This document shows positions 31,367 to 55,371 of a DNA stretch of 62,371 nucleotides, in pieces. The position numbers and the translations under genes are program-made. This DNA comes from a virus: the IMG/VR virus record IMGVR_UViG_3300029267_002381, positions 1 through 62,371 of that record. One strand, given 5' to 3'. Below the pieces are notes generated by a model. That model saw only the letters and a program-made list of their open reading frames with translations, was not told the origin of the DNA and did no database searches. Position 1 is the stretch's first letter. Each line of letters begins with the position of its first letter.

Positions 31367-32446
31367 ATGAAGAGATTTCTTCCAATCATCTTTATTCTTA
31401 TGATTACGATCCCTCTGTTTGCCCAACATCCAGCTTCAGTTCGGCAATATGTCGGATGGATGGATGCAGCGAAGTTGACCGCAAGTGATTTTCAAGGGAT
31501 GCAATTGCCGAAGATCGGGGGCACATGGTTTTGGGTTGACCCTGCCAATGGTACTGATTCTTCTACTTTGGATGGCAAATGCCATGATAATGCGTTCGCG
31601 AGCCTGACTTATGGTTATAATGCTTGTACTTCGGGTGCTGGTGATGGTATCATATTGGTTTCTGGCGCTGTTTCGGGTTCCAGTAATTCATCGACAATGA
31701 CGACACGAATAGCATGGGCCAAATATGGCATTACCGTTATTGGTCTTGCAGCTCCCAATGCTTATTTCGGCAGAGCGCGCGTAACGCACACGAGTGCTGC
31801 GGATTCACTGGTTACCCTTATCTATTTGACGGGCCAGAACAACACGTTTATCAATATTGATTTCTATAACAGCCCTGAAAACGACGGTGATCCTGTGAGT
31901 GCCACTGCTAAAGTGTCGGCCGTTCAGTTATCCGGCCCAAGGAATGCGTTTATAAACTGTCATTTCAACTGTTCTCCGCAGTCTGCCAATGCCTATAAGT
32001 CTGACTTAGAGATCAGGGTCAGTGGTGATGAAACCGTTTTCAACAACTGTTTTTTCGGGTCGAGTTCTTATGATGCTGGGGACAATGCAGCTTGCTGGAT
32101 TCATCTCTCGGGTGCAACGGCACAGAATTTCTTTACTGATTGCACCTTTCTACAGCAAGTGTCCGCCGGTACTGCATTCGGCGGGTTTGAGACTTCCGGC
32201 GCTGCTACTCTGAACGGCATTGATATTTTCAAGAGATGCGTTTTTGCGGTATGGAGAGCCAATACTCATGCCAATATCTGTGCCTCCTGGTTTATCGGAA
32301 CAAAGCCCAATACGGGCAATATCGGTATGCTGGATTGCCTTACGGTCGGTTTTACCAAGATCGATGCAGAGGCTGATAATGATGTTGTCTGGTCGAACCA
32401 GCCGGCGGCAGCCGCGGGTGGTGGGATTGGTGTCGCAACTTACTAA
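31367..32446 (+). CDS. Secreted-type beta-helix/surface protein in the head-tail region
   Basis: 359 residues from the ATG at 31367 (AAGGAG); an upstream ATG at 31331 lies inside the hairpin. Signal peptide MKRFLPIIFILMITIPLFA with Gln next. The body has the look of a right-handed beta-helix (ITVIGLAAPNAYFGRARV; NNTFINIDFYNSPEND; AFINCHFNCSPQ). Likely a surface or receptor-binding protein. The export signal is unexpected for a virion protein. Confidence 0.7.
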   Translation: MKRFLPIIFILMITIPLFAQHPASVRQYVGWMDAAKLTASDFQGMQLPKIGGTWFWVDPANGTDSSTLDGKCHDNAFASLTYGYNACTSGAGDGIILVSGAVSGSSNSSTMTTRIAWAKYGITVIGLAAPNAYFGRARVTHTSAADSLVTLIYLTGQNNTFINIDFYNSPENDGDPVSATAKVSAVQLSGPRNAFINCHFNCSPQSANAYKSDLEIRVSGDETVFNNCFFGSSSYDAGDNAACWIHLSGATAQNFFTDCTFLQQVSAGTAFGGFETSGAATLNGIDIFKRCVFAVWRANTHANICASWFIGTKPNTGNIGMLDCLTVGFTKIDAEADNDVVWSNQPAAAAGGGIGVATY

Positions 32447-32455
32447 GAGAAAAAT

Positions 32456-32483
32456 ATGGCAGGAGCTTAACGGTTCCTGCCAT
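32456..32483 (+). terminator. Intergenic hairpin
   Basis: Perfect 9-bp stem ATGGCAGGA/TCCTGCCAT, 10-base loop. It follows the exported beta-helix gene just as 31313-31345 precedes it, so hairpins bracket that gene. No T tract. Confidence 0.5.
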
Positions 32484-32502
32484 AAAGTTAAGGGTAATCT
32501 TA

Positions 32503-33165
32503 ATGACTTTTGCAACATTAAAAAACAACGTTACGAGAAAAACGGGTGTGTTGGGTTATGACTTTATTAGTCTGCTTCGGGAAGCTGAGAATGAATTCAT
32601 TGAAAAGACCCATTGCCTTTGGAAACATGATAAAGTAAGCACGGAAGACCTTAACGAAGGTACTCTTTCGGACACCTATGATCTCCCGACGGGATTTACT
32701 GGCTATGAATTTATCAAGCTTGAGTGGGAAGGGAATAAAATAGAACCCGTTCATGAAAAAAGTGGAGTTGAAATTTATCGTTCATCTGGTGTGTTGAAAA
32801 CCGGAATACCGGCAGCTTACCAGATTGAAGGAACTACATATAGATTGATCCCCAAGCCATCGAGTCATGGTTATATGGGGCGATGGTATCACTATTATCA
32901 AACTGCTACTGCGGACAGCCCGATCATTCCTGTAGTTGAACACAGGAGTTTAGCTTATTATGTCATTTTTACAGTATTTGAAATGGAAAAAAAATATGAT
33001 CAGGCTACCATTTATGAAAACAGATGGGAAAAAGAAATTCAAGCAGCAACAAAGAAATATAACATCATGAAAGCAAATCAGAAAATTGTTGAGGATGTTT
33101 TGGGCCGCACTGAAGAGGAAATGTTTTATAACGTCGATAACATTGAAGGTTATTTTTCAGAATAA
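32503..33165 (+). CDS. Head-tail connector (adaptor) protein
   Basis: 220 residues. Helical start (LLREAENEFIEKTHCLW), beta middle with DLPTGFTGYEFIKLEWEGNK and GTTYRLIPKPSSHGYMGRWY, and a helical end. The helix-beta-helix plan matches adaptors that dock under the portal (P22 gp4, T7 gp11 type). Position agrees. Confidence 0.62.
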   Translation: MTFATLKNNVTRKTGVLGYDFISLLREAENEFIEKTHCLWKHDKVSTEDLNEGTLSDTYDLPTGFTGYEFIKLEWEGNKIEPVHEKSGVEIYRSSGVLKTGIPAAYQIEGTTYRLIPKPSSHGYMGRWYHYYQTATADSPIIPVVEHRSLAYYVIFTVFEMEKKYDQATIYENRWEKEIQAATKKYNIMKANQKIVEDVLGRTEEEMFYNVDNIEGYFSE

Positions 33166-33177
33166 GGAGATTTGAAG

Positions 33178-33666
33178 ATGAGAAACTATGTGGTTGTGTT
33201 ATTCATGATAATAGCAATGCCTTTATTGGGACAGAATTTCGTGGATTGTCCTCAATACATGGTGATGGATACGCTGTTTACCCAAACCAGGGTAGTTCGG
33301 GATTTCTATTTCAACATGAACAATGACTCGACTTCGCTGAACCGGCATATAGGGCCGGTAGATTATTCTATTCTTGCCAAGGTTGGGTCTGCGACGGACA
33401 CATTGACTGTTGAAGCCTATGGGATAACAAGAAAATTACTTACCGGATTGACAAATTATCGCACAGAGTATGCCGATTCTGTAAGAGTGGCAACAATCTC
33501 GCTGACGACTGCTTATGCTTTTAACACTTATCCCATTGATCCTTTATTTGTCAATTTCAGAGTATACGACGGCATTCGGATAGTTCTGAAGAAGGGCGGT
33601 TCAGACGATGATGAGGACACCTCTTATCACAACATCCGTATTTGGCCACAGGGGAATCAAAGATGA
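33178..33666 (+). CDS. Signal-peptide protein in the tail module
   Basis: 162 residues from ATG 33178 (AAGGAG upstream). MRNYVVVLFMIIAMPLLG then Gln is a Sec signal peptide. The mature part is a small beta-rich domain. It may be part of the virion surface or an exported accessory factor; neighbours are structural genes. Confidence 0.62.
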   Translation: MRNYVVVLFMIIAMPLLGQNFVDCPQYMVMDTLFTQTRVVRDFYFNMNNDSTSLNRHIGPVDYSILAKVGSATDTLTVEAYGITRKLLTGLTNYRTEYADSVRVATISLTTAYAFNTYPIDPLFVNFRVYDGIRIVLKKGGSDDDEDTSYHNIRIWPQGNQR

Positions 33667-34001
33667 AAAGAATTCTATGTCTTGTTCTTTTAATAGCCAT
33701 ACCTCTGTTCGGTCAGGGGAAGAAAAAGGTCTATTTCGTGGTGGAATTCAGTTGTATGGAGATTAACGGAGAGGAGTATCATGGCACACCCAGGGGGAAC
33801 AGGCATGAGTCTGATGCGAAAATTACTTATGAATTTGATGAACCCATTTTTATGGTCAGTCTTAGCGATACCACTGTTTATTCCAAAGCAAAAAAAGCAG
33901 TTATAACATATTGGAAAAATGATAAATGGCACACGAAGAACGTTATGGGGAAAATCAAGAAGGGAATTAAGAGATCATCGAGAATTAAAGAAGACAAATA
34001 A
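33663..34001 (+). CDS. Signal-peptide protein, truncated or bounded by an inverted repeat
   Basis: 112 residues from ATG 33663, overlapping the previous gene. MKRILCLVLLIAIPLFG then Gln is a Sec signal. The rest is a basic beta-rich domain. Its stop codon TAA lies inside the left terminal inverted repeat of the next element, so the original C-terminus may have been changed by insertion. Confidence 0.6.
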   Translation: MKRILCLVLLIAIPLFGQGKKKVYFVVEFSCMEINGEEYHGTPRGNRHESDAKITYEFDEPIFMVSLSDTTVYSKAKKAVITYWKNDKWHTKNVMGKIKKGIKRSSRIKEDK

Positions 34002-34541: not shown

Positions 34542-34553
34542 AAAGGAAAAGCC

Positions 34554-37500
34554 ATGAAGAAGATATTCATTTTTTTAGCAATCCTTATCCTTTTGTTCGG
34601 TCAGTCGGCCATGGGTCAGGGAAGACTTGGGAATAAGTTTGTCTATGCCACGAACGACACGATATGGATAAAGGGATTTGGTTATATCGTGGGGATAGAT
34701 AGCCTTCATGTGGCCGATCTTTACGCTGTTTTACTTCAAGTAGATAGCCTTCATGCGACCGAACTTACGGCCGACAGTGTGACGATCAATGAATACTATT
34801 ATCAGATTGAAATCGGAATAGTCGATTCAGCGACGGCCTGGGTTGCGGACAATGATACGATTAGGATTGATGCTTCGAGGTCAAAATATTTTATCGAAAT
34901 AAAAGATGAGGGAACTCAGGCATTTTGGGTGGATACATCTGGAGGGGTCTACACGCTTCAGACAGTTACTATTGGTGATACCACGACGGGCGACCATGAT
35001 GCAATTCTCTATTTTGCCGATGATGGGAGTTTTACGGCTGAAAGCTTCAAGTGGGACGACGGGAATAGTAGATTTGAACTATCTAATAATTTTTATGTAG
35101 ATGGTGATTTAGAAGCTAACGGGAATGCAACTGCCGATACTGTTTTATCAGATTATTTCTCCGATGCAGATGACACGACCCGGGTTGGAGATGTAATGAA
35201 AGGGAAGGGAGGTTCTATTGGGTTTAAAGGTTCTATTGAACCCGTTGATGATGGGAGTCATGATTCTGCACACCCCGATAAGAGATGGCAGGTTGTGTAC
35301 AGTAAGAGATTCATGGTTACTGATGACTCCAAGGCAGACTCTTCTTATTGGTATGACGATGGAGACACGACTCGAATAGTATCAGATAACCCCATTAAGG
35401 TTGGAAATCAGTCTTTGATAATAAAGACAGACGGGAAAGTCCAGGCTACCGGAGATTTTTCTGCCAAGAGCTATGAAACGAATGTATCCGCGACCGAATT
35501 AGGCTATTTGTCCTCTGTAACCTCGGACGTGCAGACGCAGATTGATTCCAAAGTTAACAAAGTAGATTCTACATCTCATGCAGTAAATCATTATATGACA
35601 CGTTCTGCTGGTACGGACACGGCTTCTAATCATTGGACAGAAATAAATAAAAAAGTAAACATTGCCGATTCAACCAGCCATGCTACAGGTCATGTGGCGA
35701 CCCGAAGCGCGCTAACAGATTCGGCTTCTGCCTTACGAACTGCACTTAGTGGGGTGAACACCTATTGGAGTCAGGATGACACGGCGACTTATGTTGCCGA
35801 GTCGTCTGAAGAGGTAGAATTTAGAAAAGATGGTCTCAATCATGGTATGACCGGTTTGAGTTCTTCTGATGCCTATGCTAATTTCAGTATTAATGATGGT
35901 AGCGATGGGGGGTTAAGATTAATTGGTCTTACTAAGGCAGCCGATGTAGAAGGTCTATGGTTGGCTGGCGCATCTACCCAAGCCACGCCTACCGATTATG
36001 TTATGAAGTTTTCTGCTGGCGAAAAGACGGCTACAACATGGTCTCCCTTTGGTGCTGGAAAGAAGCTTTTCGGGTGGTATAATGACACACAATTGAGAAT
36101 GAGCCTTTCCTCGTCCGGTAATTTAGCTCTTACTCTATATGGTAGTGCGAATGGTATATCTGTTGACGGAAACAAGACAACTGGCAATCTTGCAGAATTT
36201 ATAAATGATGATGACGGTGTCGCTGGAGATAGTTCTTCCGTAGTAAATAAGTTGGGTCAATGGGTTAGTGGAGTACCAGTTGGAACCTCACCTTTCTCAA
36301 TAACGTCTACCACAGTCAACACAAATTTAAACGCCGATCTATTGGATGGAGAGGAAGCAACTGCTTTTCAGGATGCTCATGCAGCCCTGGCGAGTATTGC
36401 AGGGTTGACAGAAGCAGACGTTTCTATCCTCGAAACGACAGCCGACAACACCTATGGCGTTGTTACTTCGGGTGGGAATAATTATATCCTGGGCTCCAAT
36501 TCCGATAACTCTGCTTTGGAATTTAAAACACCGGCAAATGTATTGACTCAAATCGGCGGGCAAGGATTAGACGCAAACTTAACATCACTCGCCGGACAAT
36601 CTCACGCAGTCGGGGACTTGTTATATGCCACTGCCGCGGAGACTTATGGTAAACTTGCTGATGTGGCCGCCGGACAGCCTCTTTTAAGTGGTGGGGTTAC
36701 AACGGCTCCTGCCTATGCCGGATATACATTCTCTGGAACCGCCGCGCAGACATATACTTTTCCAACTTCAACGGCCAGTTTGGCACCGCTTAACAGCCCA
36801 CTGTTTACAACTCAAATTGCCATAGGCGACGCCGTTATAAATGAGGCTGAATTAGAGGTCATTGATGATTTGTCCACAACCAGAACACAACTTAATTATT
36901 TGAGTAATGCAACGGGTACGACGGGTACTGTTTCGACCAATATAGTATTTAGTACGGCTCCTGATTTTATCGGTCCAGTTGATATTAACACGTCTGGCAG
37001 TGCCCTTGGGTTAAAGATTGATGGTAACAAAACGACTGGCAATTTATTCCAAGCTATCAACGATGACGACGGCAACCCTGGGGATAGTAGTGTTGTCGTA
37101 ACAGCGAAAGGTTGGCTTGGTGTTTGTACGGCAAACCCTGATTATCCATTTCAGGTCATTGGTGCAGAGGTTGGTTTTGACCAGACAGTTAAGCATAATG
37201 GCGACCCCGATACGTACTTTGCATTTGCGAATGACCGATTTTATCTAAAAACTGGCGACGTATTAATGTTCGATATGTTAGAGAATGACTCCCAAGACTA
37301 CTTCGAGATTAATGGTAATGGAGGTGATGTGGATTTCCGTGTTCAATCAGCGAATGAAGATAGTGCGCTTATAGTAAATGCTTCTGATGGTGATGTTTTT
37401 ATGCAAGGGCTTGACACGGGAACTGGACAAACATTGTATAGAGTAGCCAATACAGATGAAATTGTTGAGGATGCTTCCAGTAGAATCTATAAAAACAATA

Positions 37501-37766
37501 TTAAGGGATGGAAGTTAGACCCAATCAAAATAAACATGCTTTGTCCCGTTGAATTTGACTGGAATGAAAAAAGTGCGGTCGCCGGAATGCACGATTATGG
37601 ATTGGTTGCCGAGGACGTGGCTAGGGTGTTGCCAGAACTTATCACAGCCTATGACAGTGAAGGAAATCCTAAAGACTGGCACCAGAAACGGATGATAACC
37701 TACTTGATTGGTGTCATTCAAGATCAACAGAAACGTATCGAAGCTCTTGAGGAGAAAATAAAATGA
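34554..37766 (+). CDS. Tail fibre with Sec signal peptide and C-terminal S74 chaperone domain
   Basis: 1070 residues. Signal peptide MKKIFIFLAILILLFG, then Gln (a second Ala-Met-Gly-Gln follows). A long repetitive beta-rich shaft (STSHA repeats, DLLDGEEATAF, several NKTTGNL blocks) leads to a peptidase S74 intramolecular chaperone at about residues 970-1070 (ASSRIYKNNIKGWKLD, with the Ser and Lys five apart as in the catalytic dyad), ending in a coiled coil. S74 domains trimerise fibres and then cut themselves off. Usually such fibres have no signal peptide. Confidence 0.88.
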   Translation: MKKIFIFLAILILLFGQSAMGQGRLGNKFVYATNDTIWIKGFGYIVGIDSLHVADLYAVLLQVDSLHATELTADSVTINEYYYQIEIGIVDSATAWVADNDTIRIDASRSKYFIEIKDEGTQAFWVDTSGGVYTLQTVTIGDTTTGDHDAILYFADDGSFTAESFKWDDGNSRFELSNNFYVDGDLEANGNATADTVLSDYFSDADDTTRVGDVMKGKGGSIGFKGSIEPVDDGSHDSAHPDKRWQVVYSKRFMVTDDSKADSSYWYDDGDTTRIVSDNPIKVGNQSLIIKTDGKVQATGDFSAKSYETNVSATELGYLSSVTSDVQTQIDSKVNKVDSTSHAVNHYMTRSAGTDTASNHWTEINKKVNIADSTSHATGHVATRSALTDSASALRTALSGVNTYWSQDDTATYVAESSEEVEFRKDGLNHGMTGLSSSDAYANFSINDGSDGGLRLIGLTKAADVEGLWLAGASTQATPTDYVMKFSAGEKTATTWSPFGAGKKLFGWYNDTQLRMSLSSSGNLALTLYGSANGISVDGNKTTGNLAEFINDDDGVAGDSSSVVNKLGQWVSGVPVGTSPFSITSTTVNTNLNADLLDGEEATAFQDAHAALASIAGLTEADVSILETTADNTYGVVTSGGNNYILGSNSDNSALEFKTPANVLTQIGGQGLDANLTSLAGQSHAVGDLLYATAAETYGKLADVAAGQPLLSGGVTTAPAYAGYTFSGTAAQTYTFPTSTASLAPLNSPLFTTQIAIGDAVINEAELEVIDDLSTTRTQLNYLSNATGTTGTVSTNIVFSTAPDFIGPVDINTSGSALGLKIDGNKTTGNLFQAINDDDGNPGDSSVVVTAKGWLGVCTANPDYPFQVIGAEVGFDQTVKHNGDPDTYFAFANDRFYLKTGDVLMFDMLENDSQDYFEINGNGGDVDFRVQSANEDSALIVNASDGDVFMQGLDTGTGQTLYRVANTDEIVEDASSRIYKNNIKGWKLDPIKINMLCPVEFDWNEKSAVAGMHDYGLVAEDVARVLPELITAYDSEGNPKDWHQKRMITYLIGVIQDQQKRIEALEEKIK

Positions 37767-39676
37767 AACGATTTGGAATATATATATTTACACTATTATT
37801 TGCCTCGATACTTTTTGGTCAATCATATAGAGGTAAAGAGACTAAATACGCCTATCAATATAATGCTTATTATACCGTAGACGGTTTCGATAGCCTCGGA
37901 GCTGCTTTGACGAAAGCTGCGTCCGATACTGCAACCCTACTCATCCCCGATGTGATTGGTCTTTCAACCGACGATACGGTAGATGCTAATGTTACTTTGG
38001 ATATCCCCATGGGTGGTAAAATCTCTCCGGGTAATGCCAAAACACTGCATTTAGATAATTGCTACATCAATGCAGGAAGGTATCAGATATTTGGCCCCAA
38101 TTTAACTATTACGGGCAAAATCAGCAATGAAGTGTGTTTCCCGGAATGGTGGGGAGTCGTTGGTGATGGGTCCACGGACAATGAGACCAATCATGAACGT
38201 GCAATAGATGCGAATATCTGCCGACACATGAGCTACAAGCCCTGGGTTACGTATATGATGAAGAAGATCACGTTTGATAGCAGTGGAGTGAAGTACGTGG
38301 GCCATTTTACGACATTGAAATGCGAATGTGATTCGGCTTATTCAATCTATTTTTGCTTTATTAATGGCGATAGTTGTACGTTTGAGGGATTGACATGGGA
38401 TGGGAATAGAAATCACCCAAAACACGATAAAACCAATTTTAATCTCATTCATGATGATGATGCAGCTGCGACACACTGCATTACTATGAAGAATTGTGCT
38501 TTCAAGGGTTCAGAGCATTATGGAATAAATATTGATAGTCCGTGGTACTGGTATTTTGAAAATTGTAGGTGGGACTCGATCGATTATGTGCATTTAAGGC
38601 TGCATTCAGGAAGGTCTAACAAAGTCATTGGATGTACTTTTACATTGACAAGAGAGCAGGAAGTCAATTCAAGTGCAATCTTTATAGATACTTATTACAA
38701 TAAGATTTCTAAGTCCTATTTCAAGAATATCCCTGACAATCTCGGCTATGATATTGCAGGAATAATTTTTAGTACAGATGGTTCTAATCCCTGTCAAGGA
38801 AATGTTGTTGAGGGCAATACATTTGAAGGGGATGGGAATATTGGCGGATCGCATGGGATTTCAGGTACAAACAGTACGACCATGAGAGGGAATTCTATAT
38901 ACGGGAACCATTTTAATAATTTAGATACTGGCATTGAAGCATATTGGGATTGGGGGACGATTACAGTCAATACATTCTATGGGTGCAAAGATGCTATAAT
39001 TAGCTCCGGTCCTGGAACGATCATATCATTCAATGTTTTGAAGGATTCCAGATCAATCAGGCCAAATGGTGGAAAGTCTATTGTCTGGGGGAATCTGGCC
39101 TGGGGTGATTCTTATGGTATTCGGACATCAGCTGCTGATAATATAATTGGTGGAAATTTACTTGGAGGGAGTTCTGTTTATGAAATCCGATTAGATGAAA
39201 GCGCTGATGATAACCTTATCGCTCTTAACTTTCTGCAAGATGTTGCATCGAGCAGTGGGTCATCATATCCCCATGTTATATACTTTTCCGGTGCTGGGGA
39301 TGGAAATGTATTTACTAATAACATGGTTGGGAGTGACTCCAGTGATGTCCCAACCAATTTTATAAAGGGAATCGCTGGGTCTGATAGTAATTATGTCAAA
39401 AATAATTATATAACAAATATATCCGGTGCTGTATTGAGTTCGCTGACGAATGCGGCGTCTGGAAGAGATTCATTTAGTGGTACGGCAGTAAAAGATACGG
39501 TTTTAATTCCAGGGGCAAAATCCACAGATAGTTATACCATCACGTTTCTTGGTTCTGCTGCCGACGCACAAGATGTTCCGAAGTGGGATGCAAGGAATGA
39601 TTCGTTGATCGTTGTAAGACCTGCTGACGGAGCTTCTGGTGCAGAATATCGTTGGGAAAAAAGCAAGGAAGAATAG
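37763..39676 (+). CDS. Tailspike-like pectate-lyase beta-helix protein with Sec signal
   Basis: 637 residues. Signal peptide MKRFGIYIFTLLFASILFG then Gln. The CFPEWWGVVGDGSTDNETNH segment is the hallmark of pectate-lyase-3-type spikes, followed by parallel beta-helix repeats (VIGCTFTL; NVVEGNTFEG; NVFTNNMVG). Such proteins bind or cut cell-surface polysaccharides. Coupled to the fibre gene by ATGA. Confidence 0.85.
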   Translation: MKRFGIYIFTLLFASILFGQSYRGKETKYAYQYNAYYTVDGFDSLGAALTKAASDTATLLIPDVIGLSTDDTVDANVTLDIPMGGKISPGNAKTLHLDNCYINAGRYQIFGPNLTITGKISNEVCFPEWWGVVGDGSTDNETNHERAIDANICRHMSYKPWVTYMMKKITFDSSGVKYVGHFTTLKCECDSAYSIYFCFINGDSCTFEGLTWDGNRNHPKHDKTNFNLIHDDDAAATHCITMKNCAFKGSEHYGINIDSPWYWYFENCRWDSIDYVHLRLHSGRSNKVIGCTFTLTREQEVNSSAIFIDTYYNKISKSYFKNIPDNLGYDIAGIIFSTDGSNPCQGNVVEGNTFEGDGNIGGSHGISGTNSTTMRGNSIYGNHFNNLDTGIEAYWDWGTITVNTFYGCKDAIISSGPGTIISFNVLKDSRSIRPNGGKSIVWGNLAWGDSYGIRTSAADNIIGGNLLGGSSVYEIRLDESADDNLIALNFLQDVASSSGSSYPHVIYFSGAGDGNVFTNNMVGSDSSDVPTNFIKGIAGSDSNYVKNNYITNISGAVLSSLTNAASGRDSFSGTAVKDTVLIPGAKSTDSYTITFLGSAADAQDVPKWDARNDSLIVVRPADGASGAEYRWEKSKEE

Positions 39677-39690
39677 CGGAGACTTAAATA

Positions 39691-40245
39691 ATGGCACGGC
39701 AAGTTATAAATAATAATGATTCTGGAGCGTCGGTACGGTCTAAATTAAACAGCATGTTCGATGAGTTGTTCAATTACATGCTTGCCGGACTTACTTGGAA
39801 AGGCGTGTTGAACAACGGAGATATAGTCACGGGTAGCCCGAGTTCGGGAGATTTTTATTATATAAACGAAGCCGGAACTTACGGAGGGGTCGTCTGTGAG
39901 CAGTTTGACGCAATTTTATATAATGGTTCCACATGGCAGATATTAACAAATTTCGGAGGGGGAAGGCTCGTAGAGATTCAAGCTTATTCTTCGGGTACGC
40001 CGAGTCCTTCTCCGGCGCCCGATGATCCTCTTGATTTAAATACAGTAACACACACCCTTGCTAAAACTTATACAACGACACCAAAAGTAAGCATAATTTC
40101 CAAATGTGACTGGGCGTTCCACAGGCAATCGGTGACTCTTGTGGCGGGTACTGTGACTGTGGTGGTTGGTGTGGGGGCCTATGGGAGTGTGGCGGATACA
40201 TCTAATTTAGATTATGAATTACAGGTATTTTCAAACAATATCTAA
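39691..40245 (+). CDS. Tail fibre tip or knob protein
   Basis: 184 residues, no signal peptide. Starts MARQVINNNDSGASVRSKLN, typical for podovirus tail proteins, then beta-rich segments (SSGDFYYINEAGTYGGVVC) and a compact C-terminal domain. Likely part of the receptor-binding complex. Confidence 0.6.
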   Translation: MARQVINNNDSGASVRSKLNSMFDELFNYMLAGLTWKGVLNNGDIVTGSPSSGDFYYINEAGTYGGVVCEQFDAILYNGSTWQILTNFGGGRLVEIQAYSSGTPSPSPAPDDPLDLNTVTHTLAKTYTTTPKVSIISKCDWAFHRQSVTLVAGTVTVVVGVGAYGSVADTSNLDYELQVFSNNI

Positions 40246-40247
40246 AG

Positions 40248-41810
40248 ATGAAAAGACTAATTAAAATACTCATTTTTCTCATTTTTGCCACTTCTTCTTT
40301 CGGGCAGATCAAATATCGATTGCTTCGGAAAAATCCAGCATCGGTGCGGGTTTCCGAACTCAGTAAGAATAGTGTCACCCTATGTATTTATAAAAGCCGA
40401 AGGTATCAGATTGCCGCAATTGATGGCAAAGTAGTTTGGTGGGAATTAACGAAGGGTACTCAGGTTGAAAACTTCATCGAAGATGTTGAAGATGCCCATG
40501 AGGAGATAACGGCAAACGCACATTCAGACATCACATCTTCTGGCGCCAATATTGAAGATGCGGTTTCTAAAAGACACACTCAAAATACCGATACTGTTTT
40601 AATGGTCAATACTTCAGATACGTTGATCTGTGGGGGAAATCTCCAAGATACTTTAACTGTTGATAATTTGATATTAATTGACGACAGAGACATTTCAGTA
40701 GATGGGGCAAAGCTCGATGGGATCGAAGCGAATGCCGATGTTACCGATTCGGCCAATGTAAGCGATGCTCTTAACTTAATACCCGTAAATGCACACGTGG
40801 ACATTACTTCTGCTGGCACTGACATAGAAGATGCTGTTTCGAAGAAACATGACAGAAAACATGATATTGACGGAACCGACGATCATAATGGAGTTTCGGG
40901 TGCAACAGAGGATAATTTCGTATCCTTTGACGCAAACGGACTACCAAAAGATTCAGGTAAATCCGATTCCGATTATGAAGATGCCGGTGCTGTTTCAACC
41001 CATGAATCAAGTTATGACCATTCTAAATTACACGACAGAAGCCACGCCATAGACTCAAGTTCGGATCATACATCTACGATCACAGAGAATAATCTGATGG
41101 ATGCGGACGCAAACGGTTTACCCGATGATAGTGGATTATCTGTTTCGGATGCGTCAGATGCGATCACTAAAAAACACACACAGAACTCAGATACACAACT
41201 TGATAATGGTGTGGTAAATGTTGATGCCAGCGATAATACGCAAATAGGCGACGGTGGGACTACAAATTATGCTCAGTTTGCAGCCGATGGCGAATTAAGC
41301 TTACATGGTACGGCCAGAATTTATCAAACAATATGGCTTGGGGCGAATGAGTTAAGAGAAAATAGCACCATGGCAGCCACTCTCTCTAATTGGGGGAATG
41401 GTAAAGGTTGGTCATTTGCCGACGGTGCAGATAAGGCGATCCGTGCAAATATTGGCATACCTGAAAACATGGATACAAGCGCAGACGCTACAGTAGTTCT
41501 TTTTTGGGCTACTAATAATATATCGGATGATGTTCAATGGGTTGTGACGCATCTTGCACGGACTGAAAATGAAGATACATCCATAGCGGGTTCTTCTTCG
41601 TCTTCCACCAAAACAAGTTCATCTACGTCTAAGGGTTTGAATATCGACACTTGGACTATATCGGCTTCTGACATCGGCGCAACGGATTATTACATAACCC
41701 TGGATGTGATGCGTGACGGAGATCATGCAAGCGATACTTGTACATCAGATGCTTATGTAATTATGATCGGTTTTAAATACGTGGCCAATTCACTGGGAGA
41801 AGCTCTTTAA
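40248..41810 (+). CDS. Tail fibre with Sec signal peptide
   Basis: 520 residues. MKRLIKILIFLIFATSSFG then Gln. The shaft has repeats (DAVSKKHDRKHDIDG; DANGLPKDSG and DANGLPDDSG; SKLHDRSHAIDSSSDH) seen in phage fibres, and a C-terminal beta-domain rich in Ser/Thr (SSSSTKTSSSTSKG). Likely binds the host surface. Confidence 0.78.
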   Translation: MKRLIKILIFLIFATSSFGQIKYRLLRKNPASVRVSELSKNSVTLCIYKSRRYQIAAIDGKVVWWELTKGTQVENFIEDVEDAHEEITANAHSDITSSGANIEDAVSKRHTQNTDTVLMVNTSDTLICGGNLQDTLTVDNLILIDDRDISVDGAKLDGIEANADVTDSANVSDALNLIPVNAHVDITSAGTDIEDAVSKKHDRKHDIDGTDDHNGVSGATEDNFVSFDANGLPKDSGKSDSDYEDAGAVSTHESSYDHSKLHDRSHAIDSSSDHTSTITENNLMDADANGLPDDSGLSVSDASDAITKKHTQNSDTQLDNGVVNVDASDNTQIGDGGTTNYAQFAADGELSLHGTARIYQTIWLGANELRENSTMAATLSNWGNGKGWSFADGADKAIRANIGIPENMDTSADATVVLFWATNNISDDVQWVVTHLARTENEDTSIAGSSSSSTKTSSSTSKGLNIDTWTISASDIGATDYYITLDVMRDGDHASDTCTSDAYVIMIGFKYVANSLGEAL

Positions 41811-44344: not shown

Positions 44345-44474
44345 TGTATGGGTATTCAAAATGCGAAATAAGGGGAATTTTGAAAATCGTATATGGTGTT
44401 ATGCCTGAAATAAAAAAATTAACGGATACGTTGATTTAAACGGGTTATTTTGGAAATAAGAATGAAGGTAGAAT

Positions 44475-45886: not shown

Positions 45887-46740
45887 ACGGCCAGACCAAA
45901 AAGAAAACCAGGCTCCAACAAACCTGGGAGCGAATGTTAAGACAGCAGGAGATGAGAGAGAAACCTTATCAATTCATTTCTCCTGAGAGCGATACGCTTT
46001 GGTTTAAGACTCCGAATGAGAGAGCTTTGTATAGGTCTCGCATAGAAAAGCTTTCAAGCCCTGGATCAAAACTTGACGTGATGAAAGATCAGAATCTTTT
46101 AAATCTCGCCACACAACCGACCCGCGAAGACAGCTTGATGTACGACCGACTTCATCCTGGGGAAAAGTCAATATTTCCTGAAAAAGAAAAATATGATTTC
46201 AAAAAAGCACGTGAACAGCGCTATGCTTATTTGGTTTCAAAGGCTTCAAAGGGTCAGGCTTCCCAAGAAGAACTTAATGAACTGGCTCGTTTAAGACAAT
46301 ATAAATACGCACCGAAAGAAGGCAAAAAAGGCAAAAGCAGTTCTGATAAACAAAAAGAATATATCAACCGCATGAAAGAAGCGGAAAATATTTTAAGTGC
46401 TACAAAAAAAGAAGGCACCGAATGGGATGCACCAATTGTTCCGAAATATTCAGAAGATTTGAGGGACATAGCAAAACAAACTCAGGCTGCTTATGCGGAT
46501 TCTGTTTTCTTTTTAAGAGAAGCTGACAGACTTCAAAAAAGTGGATTAGACATAACCCCTGGTCAATTAAGTCGAACCGTTGCAGAGGGTACGGCTATCG
46601 CTTCAGAATTGATGAACCAATGGCAAAACGGTGAACTGGATGTCCCCCGTGAAGAACTTGAGGCCATGATAAATGAAAGATTAAAGCCTTTAAATATGGA
46701 TTTGGACGATGTGATTTATTTCAGTCGAAAGGGTAAATAG
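45883..46740 (+). CDS. Internal virion/ejection protein
   Basis: 285 residues. Highly charged and helical (RLQQTWERMLRQQEMREKP), overlapping both neighbours. Probably the second ejection protein. No family recognised. Confidence 0.55.
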   Translation: MNGQTKKKTRLQQTWERMLRQQEMREKPYQFISPESDTLWFKTPNERALYRSRIEKLSSPGSKLDVMKDQNLLNLATQPTREDSLMYDRLHPGEKSIFPEKEKYDFKKAREQRYAYLVSKASKGQASQEELNELARLRQYKYAPKEGKKGKSSSDKQKEYINRMKEAENILSATKKEGTEWDAPIVPKYSEDLRDIAKQTQAAYADSVFFLREADRLQKSGLDITPGQLSRTVAEGTAIASELMNQWQNGELDVPREELEAMINERLKPLNMDLDDVIYFSRKGK

Positions 46741-49700
46741 TGTCGATCCTTTCCCCTAAAAAACAAGATCAATCTGATCTCAATACATTATACGACCAGG
46801 TGTTCGGTCAAGCAGGAGATGTGATGGAGGCCGAACGTAGATATTCTCAGAGATACCAGGAATTTCAACGTCCGACAAATATCATTGATCAGATTCTCGC
46901 CCCAAAGGAACCGGAAATTCCACGGGAAGATGTTGAGAAAAATCAAATAGCGATGGAACGTCCCGATCTGTATCCTGACTACAGCAAGTGGAGAAAAGAG
47001 GGGTTGACGCATGAAGCGGCTATGAGTCTGGCTGATTTTAATGTTCAGAAAAGCACAGAAAAAGGTGTTTCGGGTTTTAAGCCTCTTCTTGGAATGAAGG
47101 CTGCGGTTTCTGGATTTCCAGAAACCGCAGCGAGTCATCTCAGGGGCGCTACCGTGGGCTTGGGGAAACCACTCAGTCCCGAAGTACAGGAACAATTGGG
47201 AATTACACCAGAACAGGCAGAAAGTTTTTCGGATAAATATATTGATCCCGCACTATTAAAGGCAGCCGATTGGCTGGACAATCTGCCTAACGAACTGAGC
47301 GAAAAAGACTATGCGGAAATGAACAAGGCTATGGGAGCAAGTTTGATTCCCAAAAAGTTCAATCTGGAAGAAATTTCAAAGTCATTCAATAAGCTTCAGG
47401 TGCTTTTGGGGCGTAACTTGGCGACGCTTCTTTCTGCAAAAGTGGCTGGCAAAGCGTACGGGCCTTTGGGTGGTATTCTGGTAATGGGGAGTCAGGAGAC
47501 CGGAAATTTTGTTAAAAATGCCAACGAAACAGGAATCGATAAAGACATCACTGAGAAGTGGGCTGAAAGATACGGTGCAGTAGCCGGACCTGTTGAGTAT
47601 CTTCAGCAGGCATGGCTTTTTAGCCGGTTTGGCAAAACAAAGCCTGAACGTGAAATAGCTAAGAAGGTATTTTCCGAGTCTTTAAAGAAATTAATGATCT
47701 CAAAGGCAGGGAGGGTTATTGCCGAACTTTTGGGCGCGAGTGTAGAGGGTTTGGAAGAAGTCATCCAGGGCGGAACGCAGACTTGGATGATGAATAAAGC
47801 CATTGATGAGATGAGAGAACGCCACGGACTTTCCGAAGAGGAACTGCCTTATCAAAGCACTGATCTTAAGGAGGAATTTTTAGCGGGTGCAGCATTGGGT
47901 TTGGTTCATGCAGGTGCAGGTGGAGCAGTTCGCTCGGTAGCTAACAGAGTTTCCAATGCCGCTAAGAATGTTCGCTCAAAACCAATTGAAAATATTACCG
48001 AAGAAGATTTAAACGAAATTAATGAAGCCATCTCTGAGAAGATGAAACTTCATGAAGAAAAGCCTTTATCAGAACATGAACAATGGTGGATGGAGAATGT
48101 TTCTACATTAGAAAAATTACATAAAGTTCGTGCTTCTGAGGAAGGTCGGCAAGCCGTATTAGAAGCCCTTGCCGAGATGGAAAAAAAAGGTTTAGGAGAA
48201 GAAGATGCCTTACGCATACGAGGTGATGAAGCTGAGATTCAGGAAGGAGTTCGAGAAAGAGGGGTACTCGCCGGAGAGGGCATTGAAGAAGGCGAAGACC
48301 AAGGCGGCGAGAATATACAACGCCCAGAGAAAACAAGGCCAGAAGCCAGTGACAAGGAATTACGATTAGAGGAAAAATCAACGAAAACTAAGTGGCCTTC
48401 CAATTTACAAAGATTTATTGATGAAGAATCAAAGCAACTTCGAGAAAAATCAGACATCGAAGAACTACAGAATAATCCAGAAAAATATCTTAAAAATCGA
48501 ATTAAAACCAATAAATTAATATTAGAAATAGATTATTTCAAAAATGATAAAGAGATGATCACGACCGCAAGGGAGAATATTAAACAGTCCGAACAATTAT
48601 TAAAAGAGTTGAAAACAGAAAAAACTGAAGCCAAAGAAATATCAATTGAGGAAGTAGCGACCGAGAAAATAGAAAAACCATTATTTGAGAAAAAAATTTT
48701 TAAGCATTCTCAAACTGGCGAAGACAAACATGTTATCACTCTCGGTAAAAGAATTGATAAAGATCAATTCAAAGCATTAAGCCAACGCGCAAGATCATTG
48801 GGTGGGTATTATTCTAAATACAAACAACAGGGAGCTATCCCAGGATTTATCTTCAAAACTGAGCAGGACGCAGAGAAATTTATTGAAGGCCGATGGGGAG
48901 AAGGCAAAAAACCGATGACCTATCAGCATCTTGTCAGGAATTATGGTGGATTGAAATCAGAAGGTGATCTGGCTGGTGAGGTTAAAAGACTTCCCTTGTG
49001 GGTTCGCAGAGGAGATGGTCTTACCCTTGATCAAATGTGGGAAAGATTAAAAGAAGACGGTTATCCGGTTGAAAGCGTGAATGATCTTATCAATAAATTG
49101 ATGGCCAAAGAGGAACTTCCTGCCACTGGAAAACAAGTGAAAGAAACTGAGGAGAAAGCCCGAGAGAAAGAGGTCGAGGATTTTGAGAAATTCGAACCCG
49201 TGGAGATGACGGCTGGTGAAATTGCAAAGAAAGGTGTTGGTGCTAAAGTCAAGATTCGGGGGGAAGATTATGAAGTTAAAAAAGCCGAACCTGGGGAAAT
49301 AGTTCTGGAAGATGGTACACGGTATGAATTGGATGAATTTGATAAGATTACGGTTGATCGGGGAGAGATTATTCCTGCAGAAAAAGCGAAAGTTCTTTTC
49401 AAGCCAGGCGTAAAAGAAGCTATCAAGAAACACGACCTTGAATACATCGGTGTTCAGAAGGGCATTGCAGAACTTCCCGACCTTTTGATGTTCAACGACC
49501 CAGAAGCGAAAGGAACAACTTTTGGTGTGCCCACGGGGTCTACGGTTGAAGTGCTTGAAAAAAGAATGAATGAGGCGAGGGAAGGGTTTAAAGAGAAGCC
49601 GAAGAAAGAAGAACCGCAGATTGTAAAATTTAAGTCTGAAATGAAGAAAGATAAATTTGGTGAATCATATCCTTACAAACTGCCCGGATTTGGTGAATCA

Positions 49701-52700
49701 TATCCTTACAATCTGCCCGAAGGCGATTATCAGTTCAGGATAGAACCCAAAAAGACCGGTAAGGGATATAATTTAATCCCCATTGATGAAAACGGAGAGC
49801 CAGTTCAAGTAAAAACTGTACATGGCGACAGTATTGATAAAATTGGCATTACGCAGCAAATGTATGAACGGGATCTTGAAAAACAAATTAAAGAACAGCC
49901 CGCAAAAGAACCCTGGGAGATGACTTGGAAAGATTATTTTGATCAGAACGCATATTTTTATCATAAAGATACTGGCGAAAAAATTAGAAACGCAATTCCA
50001 GAAGACCAATTAAAAGCACGTCATAGATTATCAATAAAAAAACGGATTAGGGCTGGCAAGCCCGTACCCGCAGAAGTGCTGAAGGATTATCCAGAATTGA
50101 AGGAGAAAAAGAGTTTATTGGTGGATGGGCACAAACGAGACAACCAGGGTGGTGGATATGAAGACGTAGAAATACCCATTGGAGTTGCACGGAACATTGT
50201 TGCGCGACATGGTGGGGGTTGGGTATCCACCAAAAAACTTGAATTACCAGACGACATTAAAAAGGTTTTTAAATACGTAAGCATAAAGGATAAAGATTAT
50301 CCAAAATTACAGCCCAAGAAACTCACCACCCAAAAAGTCCCAGGTGCTAAGCACGAACAAATAGTATCTCCCGAACTTCTCGGTCAAGCCAAGATGCCGA
50401 CAGGCAAGATTAAAAAAGAAACCAAGCCAGTAGTGGGTCGTGAAGGTGTGGGGATGTTTAAGACCAAGGAACTCAAAACGGGAGATTTATTTAAAGCACA
50501 GGAGAAAGTCAGTTTTTACGATAAGAATGATGCTCTTCGTACAGGAACATTCGTTCGGAAGATTGAGAAAGGAAAGAACAAGGGTCACGTTGTTGTTGAA
50601 TATGAGGGGACAGAAAAGACAATAGCACCTGAGAAAGTAAGGATGTACGGCGGCGGCCCTTCAGCTAAAGAGGTCGTGGCTGCTACAAAAAAGGCCATTA
50701 CTCCCATTGCGAAGGTCGTTGAACCTGCAAAGCTTGTAGAATGGAAACACGGTTCTAAGGTCGCCGCCGACGTTATTAAAGCCTTTCATCATGCTCAGGC
50801 ACAACAGGTTGAGTTTTCGGATAGGGCTATCAGCAAATCGGACAAAACCTTCGGTGATGTAGAACAATATTTGAACAAGAATTTTAGTAATGCCGAACTT
50901 GATAATTTTATGCTGACAAGGGGTGATCCTACAGATATAGAGGGGATAGATTTACAGAAAGAAGCCACTCATAAAGTCTCACCTGAAATGAGAAATGTAT
51001 ACGAAAGAACTATGGCAGTCACCCAGGAAGCGGCTGACATTGCTTATGGCAAACTTTTACGATATGCCGAGGAAACCGGAAAAGGGGATGGTTTGACAGC
51101 CGACGAGATGACAGAGATTAACCTATTTTATGTAAACGACTATTTCAGGGGTGTTTACAAAAACAACGACGCTTACAGAGATTATATAAGAGATGTTAAG
51201 AAAAGACTCCAAGATCATTTCAGAAATTCAACATCGTTCTTACATCCCAAAACATTTGGGACTTATGCAGACGCAAAGGCAATTTACGGACTTGAATTGA
51301 AAAATCCAAATCCGATAACGAATATCAAATCTGAAATCGGAACGATTGAAAGAATCCGAGCCAACACGTGGTTAAGGGAAACACTTTTAGAAGACGGCAA
51401 AGACAAATACGTTATGCGCCAGACACCCAAAAAGAAACGACCGGCAGGATGGAAGCTAATCGGAGCAGAGGGTGATCCCGTGTGGAATAATATTTGGGCC
51501 GAACCTGACCTGGCAAGATTGATCAACAGCCTGCTATCTATAAATAAAATTACCACGAATAAAACTGGACGATTTTTCTGGTCGATGAATAATTATTTAA
51601 GGGCTTTTAAATTCTTGTTTAGTGCCTTTCATCAAATGTCAGTTACCAAACAGGCTTTTGCGGACAATGGTTGGTTTGGCTTTATGAATCCCAAGAAATT
51701 TACCGGCACTGTTAGGGATGCCGTAAGAATCACAAAAGATGCCCACTCGAAAGTTATCAAAGACCCGACGATTAAGAGGGCGTACCAACACTATATAAGA
51801 CTTGGCGGAACGCCTATCGGTGGTGAGGGCCATTTCGAGATTGAAAGAGCGGCTGTTCGTCAAATTGAAAAGTTGTTTGAGAAAACCGGCACGATGAAAG
51901 TTTTTAAAACCAAACTTGGCAGAGCCGCATTTAAGGTTCCGCAGTTGCCATTTAATTACGTAAGCTGGCTTTTTAGATGGTATATACCACAGCTTAAATT
52001 TCAGGCTTATATGAAAGACATTGCCAGACGCGAAACGAAATTAAAAAGAAATCTTACAGATGCCGAATTGATCGATACGATTAAGGAAGGACAAAATTTT
52101 TACGGTGAGATGAACGAGCGTCTTTTTGGGCGAAGCGGCACAACAACAACTTTAATGCGATTTATCTGGATGGCGCCCGGATATGCCGAAGGGAACTATA
52201 GAACGAACATTAAAGCTTTGGCCCAATGGGGAAAAGGTGGGCCTGGGGATCGATCCAGGCAGAACGTAGTCAATTCTTTGATTATTTCCGCAACACTGGC
52301 AACAATCGGGACATTAATATTTACAAAAAAATCACCCAAAAAACCGGAAACCGTTGAAGATATTAGAGATTTATTCAAAGTCAATACGGGGTTGAAGGAC
52401 GATAAAGACAGAGACATTATGATAGATATGCTCACTTATGACAAAGACTACTGGCAAATTTGGGGTAATCTTTTCACGGGACAGGCAGACAAGATACCCT
52501 CTGGTGTCCTTGATAGGGTGGGGGGTATGAATTCTACGTTATTGCAGGTGGCCACGGACATGGGTGAGTTGATGCAAGGCAAGGCTGTCATAGATTGGAA
52601 AAACGATGTTGTTGTTGATGTACCTTTGGATATGCAGGAAATAATGAAGTTTGTTAATTATGAATTGACCCGAATGGCGCCCATATCAACAAGCACTTTT

Positions 52701-53090
52701 CAGCAATCACGGCGTAGAGGTGCAAATGCAGCTCTGGCCTTTGCTATGTCTGCTCTTGGCGTGAGGACTACGGTTACAGAAGAAGAAAAAAGACGGAGAG
52801 AGCATTGGGAAAAGTTTTACAAACTAAGAAATAATCGAGATGAGTTATTCCGATATTTAACCACAATAAACGACCCGATAAAAAATGTAGAAGAATATAA
52901 TAAACAGATCAATAAATTTGTCGAAAAGGAATCCGTTCCCAAAGAGGTTCGAGATGCAGGAAGAAAGCTTTTGATAAATATAAAACGTTATCTGTGGCGA
53001 CAAAAAATGATTGCATCTGGAAGGCATAAAGCCACACATCAACAAAGGGAACGAGCGAAAAGGATTATTGAGAATTTTGAAAAGAAGTGA
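46740..53090 (+). CDS. Giant internal virion protein (polyvalent-type, T7 gp16-like role)
   Basis: 2116 residues from a GTG sharing a base with the previous stop. N-terminal third contains hydrophobic/amphipathic helices (AGAALGLVHAGAGGAVRSVA); the middle is Lys/Glu-rich with several small domains (YYSKYKQQGAIPGFIFKTEQ; KVKIRGEDYEVKKAEPGEI) and a tandem duplication of FGESYPYKLPG (49660-49721). The last 600 residues have membrane-like segments (SLIISATLATIGTLIF). Such proteins are ejected into the host, may protect phage DNA, and build the entry channel. No enzyme motif is certain. Confidence 0.75.
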   Translation: MSILSPKKQDQSDLNTLYDQVFGQAGDVMEAERRYSQRYQEFQRPTNIIDQILAPKEPEIPREDVEKNQIAMERPDLYPDYSKWRKEGLTHEAAMSLADFNVQKSTEKGVSGFKPLLGMKAAVSGFPETAASHLRGATVGLGKPLSPEVQEQLGITPEQAESFSDKYIDPALLKAADWLDNLPNELSEKDYAEMNKAMGASLIPKKFNLEEISKSFNKLQVLLGRNLATLLSAKVAGKAYGPLGGILVMGSQETGNFVKNANETGIDKDITEKWAERYGAVAGPVEYLQQAWLFSRFGKTKPEREIAKKVFSESLKKLMISKAGRVIAELLGASVEGLEEVIQGGTQTWMMNKAIDEMRERHGLSEEELPYQSTDLKEEFLAGAALGLVHAGAGGAVRSVANRVSNAAKNVRSKPIENITEEDLNEINEAISEKMKLHEEKPLSEHEQWWMENVSTLEKLHKVRASEEGRQAVLEALAEMEKKGLGEEDALRIRGDEAEIQEGVRERGVLAGEGIEEGEDQGGENIQRPEKTRPEASDKELRLEEKSTKTKWPSNLQRFIDEESKQLREKSDIEELQNNPEKYLKNRIKTNKLILEIDYFKNDKEMITTARENIKQSEQLLKELKTEKTEAKEISIEEVATEKIEKPLFEKKIFKHSQTGEDKHVITLGKRIDKDQFKALSQRARSLGGYYSKYKQQGAIPGFIFKTEQDAEKFIEGRWGEGKKPMTYQHLVRNYGGLKSEGDLAGEVKRLPLWVRRGDGLTLDQMWERLKEDGYPVESVNDLINKLMAKEELPATGKQVKETEEKAREKEVEDFEKFEPVEMTAGEIAKKGVGAKVKIRGEDYEVKKAEPGEIVLEDGTRYELDEFDKITVDRGEIIPAEKAKVLFKPGVKEAIKKHDLEYIGVQKGIAELPDLLMFNDPEAKGTTFGVPTGSTVEVLEKRMNEAREGFKEKPKKEEPQIVKFKSEMKKDKFGESYPYKLPGFGESYPYNLPEGDYQFRIEPKKTGKGYNLIPIDENGEPVQVKTVHGDSIDKIGITQQMYERDLEKQIKEQPAKEPWEMTWKDYFDQNAYFYHKDTGEKIRNAIPEDQLKARHRLSIKKRIRAGKPVPAEVLKDYPELKEKKSLLVDGHKRDNQGGGYEDVEIPIGVARNIVARHGGGWVSTKKLELPDDIKKVFKYVSIKDKDYPKLQPKKLTTQKVPGAKHEQIVSPELLGQAKMPTGKIKKETKPVVGREGVGMFKTKELKTGDLFKAQEKVSFYDKNDALRTGTFVRKIEKGKNKGHVVVEYEGTEKTIAPEKVRMYGGGPSAKEVVAATKKAITPIAKVVEPAKLVEWKHGSKVAADVIKAFHHAQAQQVEFSDRAISKSDKTFGDVEQYLNKNFSNAELDNFMLTRGDPTDIEGIDLQKEATHKVSPEMRNVYERTMAVTQEAADIAYGKLLRYAEETGKGDGLTADEMTEINLFYVNDYFRGVYKNNDAYRDYIRDVKKRLQDHFRNSTSFLHPKTFGTYADAKAIYGLELKNPNPITNIKSEIGTIERIRANTWLRETLLEDGKDKYVMRQTPKKKRPAGWKLIGAEGDPVWNNIWAEPDLARLINSLLSINKITTNKTGRFFWSMNNYLRAFKFLFSAFHQMSVTKQAFADNGWFGFMNPKKFTGTVRDAVRITKDAHSKVIKDPTIKRAYQHYIRLGGTPIGGEGHFEIERAAVRQIEKLFEKTGTMKVFKTKLGRAAFKVPQLPFNYVSWLFRWYIPQLKFQAYMKDIARRETKLKRNLTDAELIDTIKEGQNFYGEMNERLFGRSGTTTTLMRFIWMAPGYAEGNYRTNIKALAQWGKGGPGDRSRQNVVNSLIISATLATIGTLIFTKKSPKKPETVEDIRDLFKVNTGLKDDKDRDIMIDMLTYDKDYWQIWGNLFTGQADKIPSGVLDRVGGMNSTLLQVATDMGELMQGKAVIDWKNDVVVDVPLDMQEIMKFVNYELTRMAPISTSTFQQSRRRGANAALAFAMSALGVRTTVTEEEKRRREHWEKFYKLRNNRDELFRYLTTINDPIKNVEEYNKQINKFVEKESVPKEVRDAGRKLLINIKRYLWRQKMIASGRHKATHQQRERAKRIIENFEKK

Positions 53091-53100
53091 GGAGAATAGA

Positions 53101-53763
53101 ATGAAAACAAAATATTTGATATTGCTATTGATAGTTCTTCCAGTTTTTGTTCATGCCCAACGGCGAAAAACACGAGTTGACAGCCTTGAGATACGGGCCT
53201 ATGTAGAAATTCTGGATAATAATATCACGCGATTTTTGGGCTATAAGATCATAGATAACAAGCTTCGAAGTAGTGGTATCGGAGATACAGCTATTGCAAC
53301 AAGAGCCTTGAAAGAAGGGGCGGTAACATCGACTATTATTGAAGATGGCACTATTGTATTATCTGATTTGTCCGATGCAGCAAAATCATATGTCGGTGGT
53401 GATGTGACCAATAATCCCGATGATGTGACAATAAAGGCCAGTGGTGAGAATCTTTATGTGGCTAATCCATTTGGTAACCTGGATACCTTAACTCAGAATT
53501 CTGTAACTCCCAGCATAGCAGGGGGGCCTTCATTCAGGACAAATAATACCAGTTTAACGACGATTACGAGTTTTACGAATACGCCCGGGTCCAGTATTCC
53601 ACAATGGGGTCATATCTATGTGATGGACGATTCGACACAATTTCAACATGGAGCCACCTTTGATTGTGGTGGGGTGACGTTAGCACCAGACAGTTCGGAC
53701 GTGATGAGTTATGATTGGGATGGTCACATGGTATTCATTCGGTTCAGTCAGATTAAAAATTAA
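53101..53763 (+). CDS. Secreted-type late protein
   Basis: 220 residues from the ATG at 53101 (GAGGAG). Signal peptide MKTKYLILLLIVLPVFVHA then Gln. The mature body is Ser/Thr/Asp-rich and beta-like (TSTIIEDGTIVLSDLSDAAK), like fibre shafts. The DNA at the cleavage site (53153-53175) is identical to the start of the 6552 ORF. Confidence 0.65.
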   Translation: MKTKYLILLLIVLPVFVHAQRRKTRVDSLEIRAYVEILDNNITRFLGYKIIDNKLRSSGIGDTAIATRALKEGAVTSTIIEDGTIVLSDLSDAAKSYVGGDVTNNPDDVTIKASGENLYVANPFGNLDTLTQNSVTPSIAGGPSFRTNNTSLTTITSFTNTPGSSIPQWGHIYVMDDSTQFQHGATFDCGGVTLAPDSSDVMSYDWDGHMVFIRFSQIKN

Positions 53764-55354: not shown

Positions 55355-55371
55355 AACTTTCTATATAATAA
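55355..55371 (+). repeat. 17-bp promoter-like direct repeat, copy 1
   Basis: AACTTTCTATATAATAA; repeated at 55949-55965. It contains a TATAAT-type -10 box and precedes the cytosine methyltransferase gene. Confidence 0.9.

Follow-up and report, generated by a model that had tools for sequence, protein, structure and literature searches.

Predicted Sec signal peptides followed by glutamine on fiber- and spike-type genes of an uncultured SU10-like podovirus

We analyzed IMGVR_UViG_3300029267_002381, a phage sequence of 62,371 bases (the window) with a 144-base direct terminal repeat at its ends, which indicates that it is a complete phage genome. A Sec signal peptide (SP) of the type cleaved by signal peptidase I (SPI) was predicted at the start of nine of its genes, seven of which are located in the head/tail/late region. 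Export of these proteins is well supported at the sequence level, since the SPs are kept or swapped on homologs, Gln follows the cleavage site, and an O-glycosylation motif is enriched. The explanation that we prefer, and to which we assign close to an even chance, is that the fibers and spikes reach the periplasm by export, undergo processing in it, and are freed at lysis, after which they may join virions. The nine genes, named below by their first position, are the following (the arrow marks the predicted cleavage site; L and G numbers are our handles for other sequences compared):

31367..32446, + strand: SP (FA↓Q), N terminus MKRFLPIIFILMITIPLFA↓Q; right-handed beta-helix, spike-like protein beside the capsid genes (homologs, AF2 model, Foldseek)
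33178..33666, + strand: SP (LG↓Q), N terminus MRNYVVVLFMIIAMPLLG↓Q; small beta-rich protein, downstream of the first adaptor gene (homologs in L036 and L038)
33663..34001, + strand: SP (FG↓Q), N terminus MKRILCLVLLIAIPLFG↓Q; basic mature protein of 95 amino acids (direct reading, predictor)
34554..37766, + strand: SP (MG↓Q), N terminus MKKIFIFLAILILLFGQSAMG↓Q; fiber of 1070 amino acids with a C-terminal Peptidase_S74 chaperone domain (PF13884)
37763..39676, + strand: SP (FG↓Q), N terminus MKRFGIYIFTLLFASILFG↓Q; pectate-lyase-like beta-helix spike (PF13229, 24.5 bits, just below the cut-off of 25.9)
40248..41810, + strand: SP (FG↓Q), N terminus MKRLIKILIFLIFATSSFG↓Q; repetitive fiber with HDRKHDIDGTDDH-type repeats (direct reading; no family match)
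53101..53763, + strand: SP (HA↓Q), N terminus MKTKYLILLLIVLPVFVHA↓Q; small fiber-like protein after the giant ejection-type gene (direct reading, predictor)
11241..11624, + strand: SP (MG↓Q), N terminus MKYFTTILVLLAVSVMG↓Q; small, predicted secreted protein outside the structural module (direct reading, predictor)
11621..12481, + strand: SP (AG↓Q), N terminus MKRTIARLAFIALIPAMLAG↓Q; protein with an FN3-like C terminus (read by eye; no Pfam match)

To call SPs, we used a home-made predictor of n-, h-, and c-regions, which, tested on Escherichia coli sequences at its working threshold, recognized 7 of 8 known SPs and made no call on 5 cytosolic or membrane proteins. It called all nine window genes, in agreement with the original prediction. 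Each SP is composed of a short positive n-region, a hydrophobic core with a short uncharged run (13 to 16 residues), and a Gly/Ala↓Gln site that is allowed at positions -3 and -1 in 9/9 cases. The site ranked highest by the predictor was a neighboring one in 11621, 33663, and 40248, where the Gly/Ala↓Gln site is still allowed. Given a Gln content of 3% and the number of allowed sites per protein, all nine proteins would have Gln at +1 of an allowed site by chance with a probability of ~1e-10; the habit of Ala or Gly followed by Gln that had been noticed initially is thus confirmed. None of the nine has a lipobox Cys at +1, and no type IX secretion C-terminal sorting domain family was found among the Pfam/NCBIfam matches of the SP proteins. 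A Shine-Dalgarno (SD)-like motif precedes most of the chosen start codons of the SP genes, with none at 33663 and 40248.

The SPs are found in 7 of the ~21 head/tail/late genes, whereas five cultured Bacteroidota phages, with 71 structural proteins in total, have none (Fisher p 1.3e-5); these include phi14:2, the virion proteins of which were annotated by tandem mass spectrometry (MS/MS). Within the window, the S74 fiber and the pectate-lyase-like spike carry an SP, whereas the portal, capsid, adaptor, nozzle-like, and ejection-like proteins all lack one, so that the contrast initially drawn between these proteins holds; the fiber-like 39691 likewise lacks an SP. The genes run in the order terminase, portal, scaffold-like, capsid, adaptor, fiber island, nozzle-like, second adaptor, giant ejection-type gene, and endolysin, and the following genes serve as contrast or flank the SP genes:

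29836..30837, + strand: major capsid protein (MCP), no SP (phrog_9953, E 2.6e-38)
32503..33165, + strand: SU10-type adaptor, no SP (PF24175, E 1.2e-8)
39691..40245, + strand: fiber-like protein, no SP, candidate ordinary virion fiber (no family match)
41810..44344, + strand: nozzle-like protein, no SP (homologs in G001, G003, and G004; no family match)
46740..53090, + strand: giant ejection-type protein, no SP (direct reading; no family match)
54142..54564, + strand: M15-type endolysin, no SP, immediately following the region of the last SP gene (PF13539, E 6e-9; PHROG endolysin, E 1.4e-15)

The family of 31367 illustrates how the signal comes and goes beside the capsid gene. A search with a two-sequence alignment retrieved homologs at 30 IMG/VR loci; at the loci examined, the gene is located directly after the MCP gene or one small gene apart. 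The MCP partners belong to at least six unrelated PHROGs (1328, 267, 283, 9953, 752, and 371), indicating that the family moves between capsid backgrounds, and its members are candidate mobile head spike or decoration genes. Among 25 nonredundant members, 20 start in a cytoplasmic form for which no alternative start yields an SP, whereas the remaining 5 carry one (window, FA↓Q; L059, YG↓Q; L060, FA↓Q; L061, NA↓Q; and L063, on the L038 contig). An export signal is thus optional on the same capsid-side protein. On the family tree, from which the N-terminal columns were left out, the SP must have been gained or lost at least three times, and a single clade of the five SP-bearing members was rejected (p-AU 8e-5). 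Such frequent changes on one capsid-side gene are hard to explain unless export matters. The original prediction had considered that homologs lacking the segment would speak against it; many do lack it, but the differences correspond to repeated gains or losses, which backs the signal being real. Cysteine content did not differ clearly between members with and without an SP and is thus not informative as to the compartment. The family (window 31367-32446; L059-L088) is unnamed, is found in uncultured phages, and has no PHROG or Pfam match.

The AF2 model of 31367 is a right-handed beta-helix (pLDDT 80, pTM 0.84). Foldseek placed pectate lyase Pel9A, rhamnogalacturonan lyase, and pectin methylesterases nearest to it, with phage tailspikes lower, at moderate scores (TM ~0.5 or less) that do not imply enzymatic activity. 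The model of 33178 (pLDDT 47) was too poor for use. The match of 34554 to PF13884 reached 24.9 bits in a six-frame search (cut-off 22) and 19.8, below the cut-off, in a whole-protein scan; in 37763, a FPEWWGVVGDGSTDN motif was read by eye. A PDB sequence search with these two proteins returned no match.

Predicted SP-bearing fibers also occur in phages with other capsids. Homologs of 33178 in L036 and L038 (29 to 30% identity) occupy the same position and have SP-like starts, with the Gln aligned in all three, the best cut in L036 being possibly a few residues upstream of it. The next gene in L036 encodes an SP-bearing fiber with VGIGTT repeats, and the L038 gene downstream of the 33178 homolog shares 51% identity over 69 residues with the product of 39691. 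G016, which has a phrog_267 capsid, encodes between its tail genes and a lysozyme-like gene a 904-residue SP protein with a C-terminal S74 domain (PF13884, 28 bits, over the cut-off). G024 has a 681-residue fiber-like protein (LFG↓Q) in tail-fiber position and a 31367 homolog without SP. G006 resembles the window in gene order, with only the terminase alike in sequence; it has an SP fiber (7633) after the nozzle-like gene and four SP genes after the giant gene, the slot held by 53101 in the window, all without Gln at +1. These four genes are consecutive (L015:1167-4333), and one of them has a ConA-like lectin domain (PF13385).

A second line of evidence comes from O-glycosylation motifs. In Bacteroidota, the motif D(S/T)(A/I/L/V/M/T) is used on exported proteins only, and published cases are mostly periplasmic proteins (PMC8729774). 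We compared motif counts with expectations from shuffled sequences; the test was chosen once the SP set was known, whereas the motif itself was set by the literature. The nine mature SP proteins contain 48 motifs versus 21.6 expected (31 versus 14 with the largest protein left out), the excess being present in most of them, including 11241, 11621, 33178, and 53101, and the SP proteins of relatives contain 27 versus 9.8. No excess was observed in 11 virion-type proteins of the window without SP (11 versus 14.9), in 40 other window open reading frames (ORFs) (18 versus 19.5), or in 13.8 thousand residues of SP-less structural proteins from cultured Bacteroidota phages (54 versus 55.6), and reversed, E[ST], N[ST], and D[AGN] variants gave no comparable excess in the window set. 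In the SP set of G006, the excess is weaker and the reversed motif is raised equally. The motif excess, independently enriched, suggests for a second time that the SP proteins reach the periplasm.

Taken together, these data are consistent with the following sequence of events. Late in infection, the phage would produce fibers, spikes, and small accessory proteins, each carrying a type I Sec SP; the host translocon would move them into the periplasm, and SPI would cut them before Gln. Host glutaminyl cyclase would probably convert the +1 Gln to pyroglutamate, and the host O-glycosylation machinery would probably decorate D[ST]-hydrophobic sites. The proteins would fold and trimerize in the periplasm, separated from the cytoplasm where heads and tails assemble, until endolysin-driven lysis mixed both pools, and at least the spikes and fibers could then join virions outside the cytoplasm. 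The original prediction had offered either remodeling of the host surface or a periplasmic assembly step; export stands, and either option may apply. The absence of a type IX sorting match, the Gln in place of a lipobox Cys, and the concentration of O-glycosylation on periplasmic proteins make us lean to the periplasm; with neither lipobox nor sorting domain found, known routes to surface display are less probable. Virion membership is favored by the capsid-adjacent SP-less homologs, the S74 and fiber-repeat domains, and the fiber-gene positions.

Several observations weigh against this explanation. The place of the SP proteins in virions is predicted from sequence, and the SP-less 39691 could serve as the real virion fiber. 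SP genes 11241 and 11621 are located outside the structural module. In the 31367 family, members with SP do not contain more O-glycosylation motifs than those without, and the L063 homolog has an SP without Gln at +1 of the likely site. The relatives G004, L045/L046, L047, and L052 lack both the fiber island and SP-bearing structural genes, so that this type of phage needs none of them. Finally, no cultured Bacteroidota phage examined, phi14:2 included, has a structural SP; the SP habit is thus not general.

A serious competitor, to which we give a lower probability, is that the exported proteins are not virion parts and act in the periplasm, envelope, or medium, where they would prevent superinfection, cover receptors on debris, or break down surface polysaccharide both before and after lysis. 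The evidence for export serves it equally, and it would account for beta-helix folds in 31367 and 37763 like those of polysaccharide lyases and esterases, for the position of 11241 and 11621, and for the occurrence of SP genes as variable islands absent from relatives; furthermore, phage Q-rule proteins (an SP followed by Gln) of Porphyromonas gingivalis were linked by the authors to outer-membrane change (PMC10367356). However, the SP-less 31367 homologs beside six unrelated capsid genes resemble a virion component, S74 and repeat-fiber domains in fiber-gene positions are hallmarks of virion fibers, and neither an outer-membrane anchor nor a sorting domain was found in the SP proteins. If they were not virion parts, the phage would encode an unusually large set of secreted fiber-like effectors, which would also be unexpected.

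It is improbable that the set is mixed, with 31367, 34554, 37763, and 40248 being exported virion spikes and fibers and 33663, 11241, 11621, and perhaps 53101 being secreted host-modifying proteins. Gene neighborhoods and sizes differ, and only 31367 and 33178 have recognizable homologs at conserved positions, but the motif excess extends to most of the proteins, 11241, 11621, 33178, and 53101 among them. We consider it very unlikely that the segments only resemble SPs and are instead assembly tags or hydrophobic N-terminal anchors that stay uncleaved: cleavage is a prediction, whereas the length of the uncharged cores, the allowed -3,-1 sites with Gln at +1 in 9/9, the excess of a periplasmic glycosylation motif, and the repeated gain and loss in the 31367 family all argue for genuine SPs. 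An artifact (misassigned start codons, a chimeric contig, or secreted host genes picked up by chance) might be suspected in a metagenomic contig in which 33663 and 40248 have no obvious SD site, but it is largely refuted by the terminal repeat, the SD sites before most SP genes, and the SP-bearing homologs on independent contigs.

The Gln at +1 suggests a host that follows the Q-rule. The proposed fit to Bacteroidota has to be amended, since SD-like sites precede 59% of the window ORFs, whereas the share is 4 to 16% in three cultured Bacteroidota phages. SD sites are naturally absent from Bacteroidetes (PMC6847099, PMC3155529), and such strong usage speaks against a host from the classical Bacteroidia or Flavobacteriia; a host that combines the Q-rule with SD usage is more probable. 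With a Q-value of 77% for Ignavibacterium album (PMC5837995) and a listing of Ignavibacteria at 32 for SD usage (PMC10783764), an Ignavibacterium-type host is a reasonable guess. High SD usage joined with Q-rule SPs is in itself an unusual host fingerprint. A lead to Cloacimonadota (L042, with 39% terminase identity; G101) was of no help in placing the host, as the L042 genome has no 31367 homolog, and a search of 123 Cloacimonadota genomes with the 31367 family gave only weak generic beta-helix matches.

The phage was assigned as an SU10-like podovirus from its portal (PF23899, 38.3 bits versus a cut-off of 30) and two adaptors (PF24175, matched twice, 36 versus 27 bits). Megablast of the structural region against cultured phages gave no match, nor did tblastn with 37763, 31367, and the G024 fiber; single-protein IMG/VR scans with the MCP, 31367, and S74 proteins yielded no usable relative, and L023, tried as a relative, was found to be unrelated. 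Other observations concern neighboring genes. Window positions 16830-17783 encode a PMT_2-like membrane glycosyltransferase piece (E 7e-4, below cut-off) that could act on the periplasmic side, and the ORF after it (17973-18407) may be the C-terminal domain of the same protein. A short protein (55371-55949) weakly resembles C5 cytosine methylases (E 0.022, below cut-off), and L036 has two more polytopic genes between portal and capsid (L036:5060-7629). Starts similar to twin-arginine signals (RREF/RRDFLK/RRRSFLK) were seen on small genes at window 159-662, where a possible lipobox is also present, L036:10606-11088, and L038:7614-7907 (- strand); these are possibly Tat-exported phage proteins.

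Tailed phages are assumed to produce and assemble their appendages in the cytoplasm, and a missing SP has even been taken to indicate phage origin (PMC6199706). If the proposed periplasmic maturation is true, tailed-phage assembly would include a step across the membrane, with attachment perhaps completed after lysis, and host glycans may sit on phage receptor-binding proteins. As a broader and tentative proposal, tailed phages of a large group of uncultured bacteria may mature pyroglutamylated and O-glycosylated receptor-binding spikes and fibers in the periplasm and attach them to heads and tails only at or after lysis, the SP being an evolutionary switch that the same virion genes repeatedly acquire or lose depending on the host. 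This may alter the picture of virus assembly in a large, mostly uncultured bacterial group, and the combination of SP plus Gln with the D[ST] motif could provide genome-only host clues for uncultured phages. We found no report of Sec-routed fibers or spikes of tailed phages in the open-access papers searched.

Among known systems, the coat proteins pIII and pVIII of the filamentous phage M13 carry Sec SPs and pass through membrane insertion or the Sec machinery before joining the particle, as we propose for the SP proteins here; however, M13 is extruded through the membrane, whereas the window encodes a tailed podovirus with cytoplasmic head assembly. SU10-like podoviruses (PF23899, PF24175) share the portal and two adaptors, but the late region of the window contains a large island of SP genes. 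Like other Peptidase_S74 tail fibers (PF13884), 34554 has a C-terminal intramolecular chaperone domain, whereas the S74 fiber of Cellulophaga phage phi38:1 has no SP. All nine proteins share with the Q-rule SPI substrates of Bacteroidetes a type I SP followed by Gln (PMC5837995, PMC10653852), but they are phage-encoded, the SP being present on fiber and spike genes, the SD usage is unlike that of Bacteroidia or Flavobacteriia, and pyroglutamate is only predicted. Similarly, the Nixviridae prophages of P. gingivalis have genes with Q-rule SPs (PMC10367356), but the five proteins concerned belong to temperate phages and have no known function, whereas the window genes are of fiber and spike type in a structural module. 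The motif is doubled over chance in the exported set, as in Bacteroidota O-glycoproteins (PMC8729774), although here the proteins are from a phage and glycosylation is predicted. Phage-encoded Q-rule proteins (PMC10367356) and Sec-routed filamentous coat proteins were thus known already. Flavobacterium columnare phage FCL-2 gp71 (L056:45363-45806), matched in 78 phage records, has an SP (S↓Q) and a fiber-like VGIATTTP start; it is short (147 amino acids) and located outside the structural module, unlike the SP fibers of the window, and it offers a cultured model for the question of SP-bearing phage fibers.

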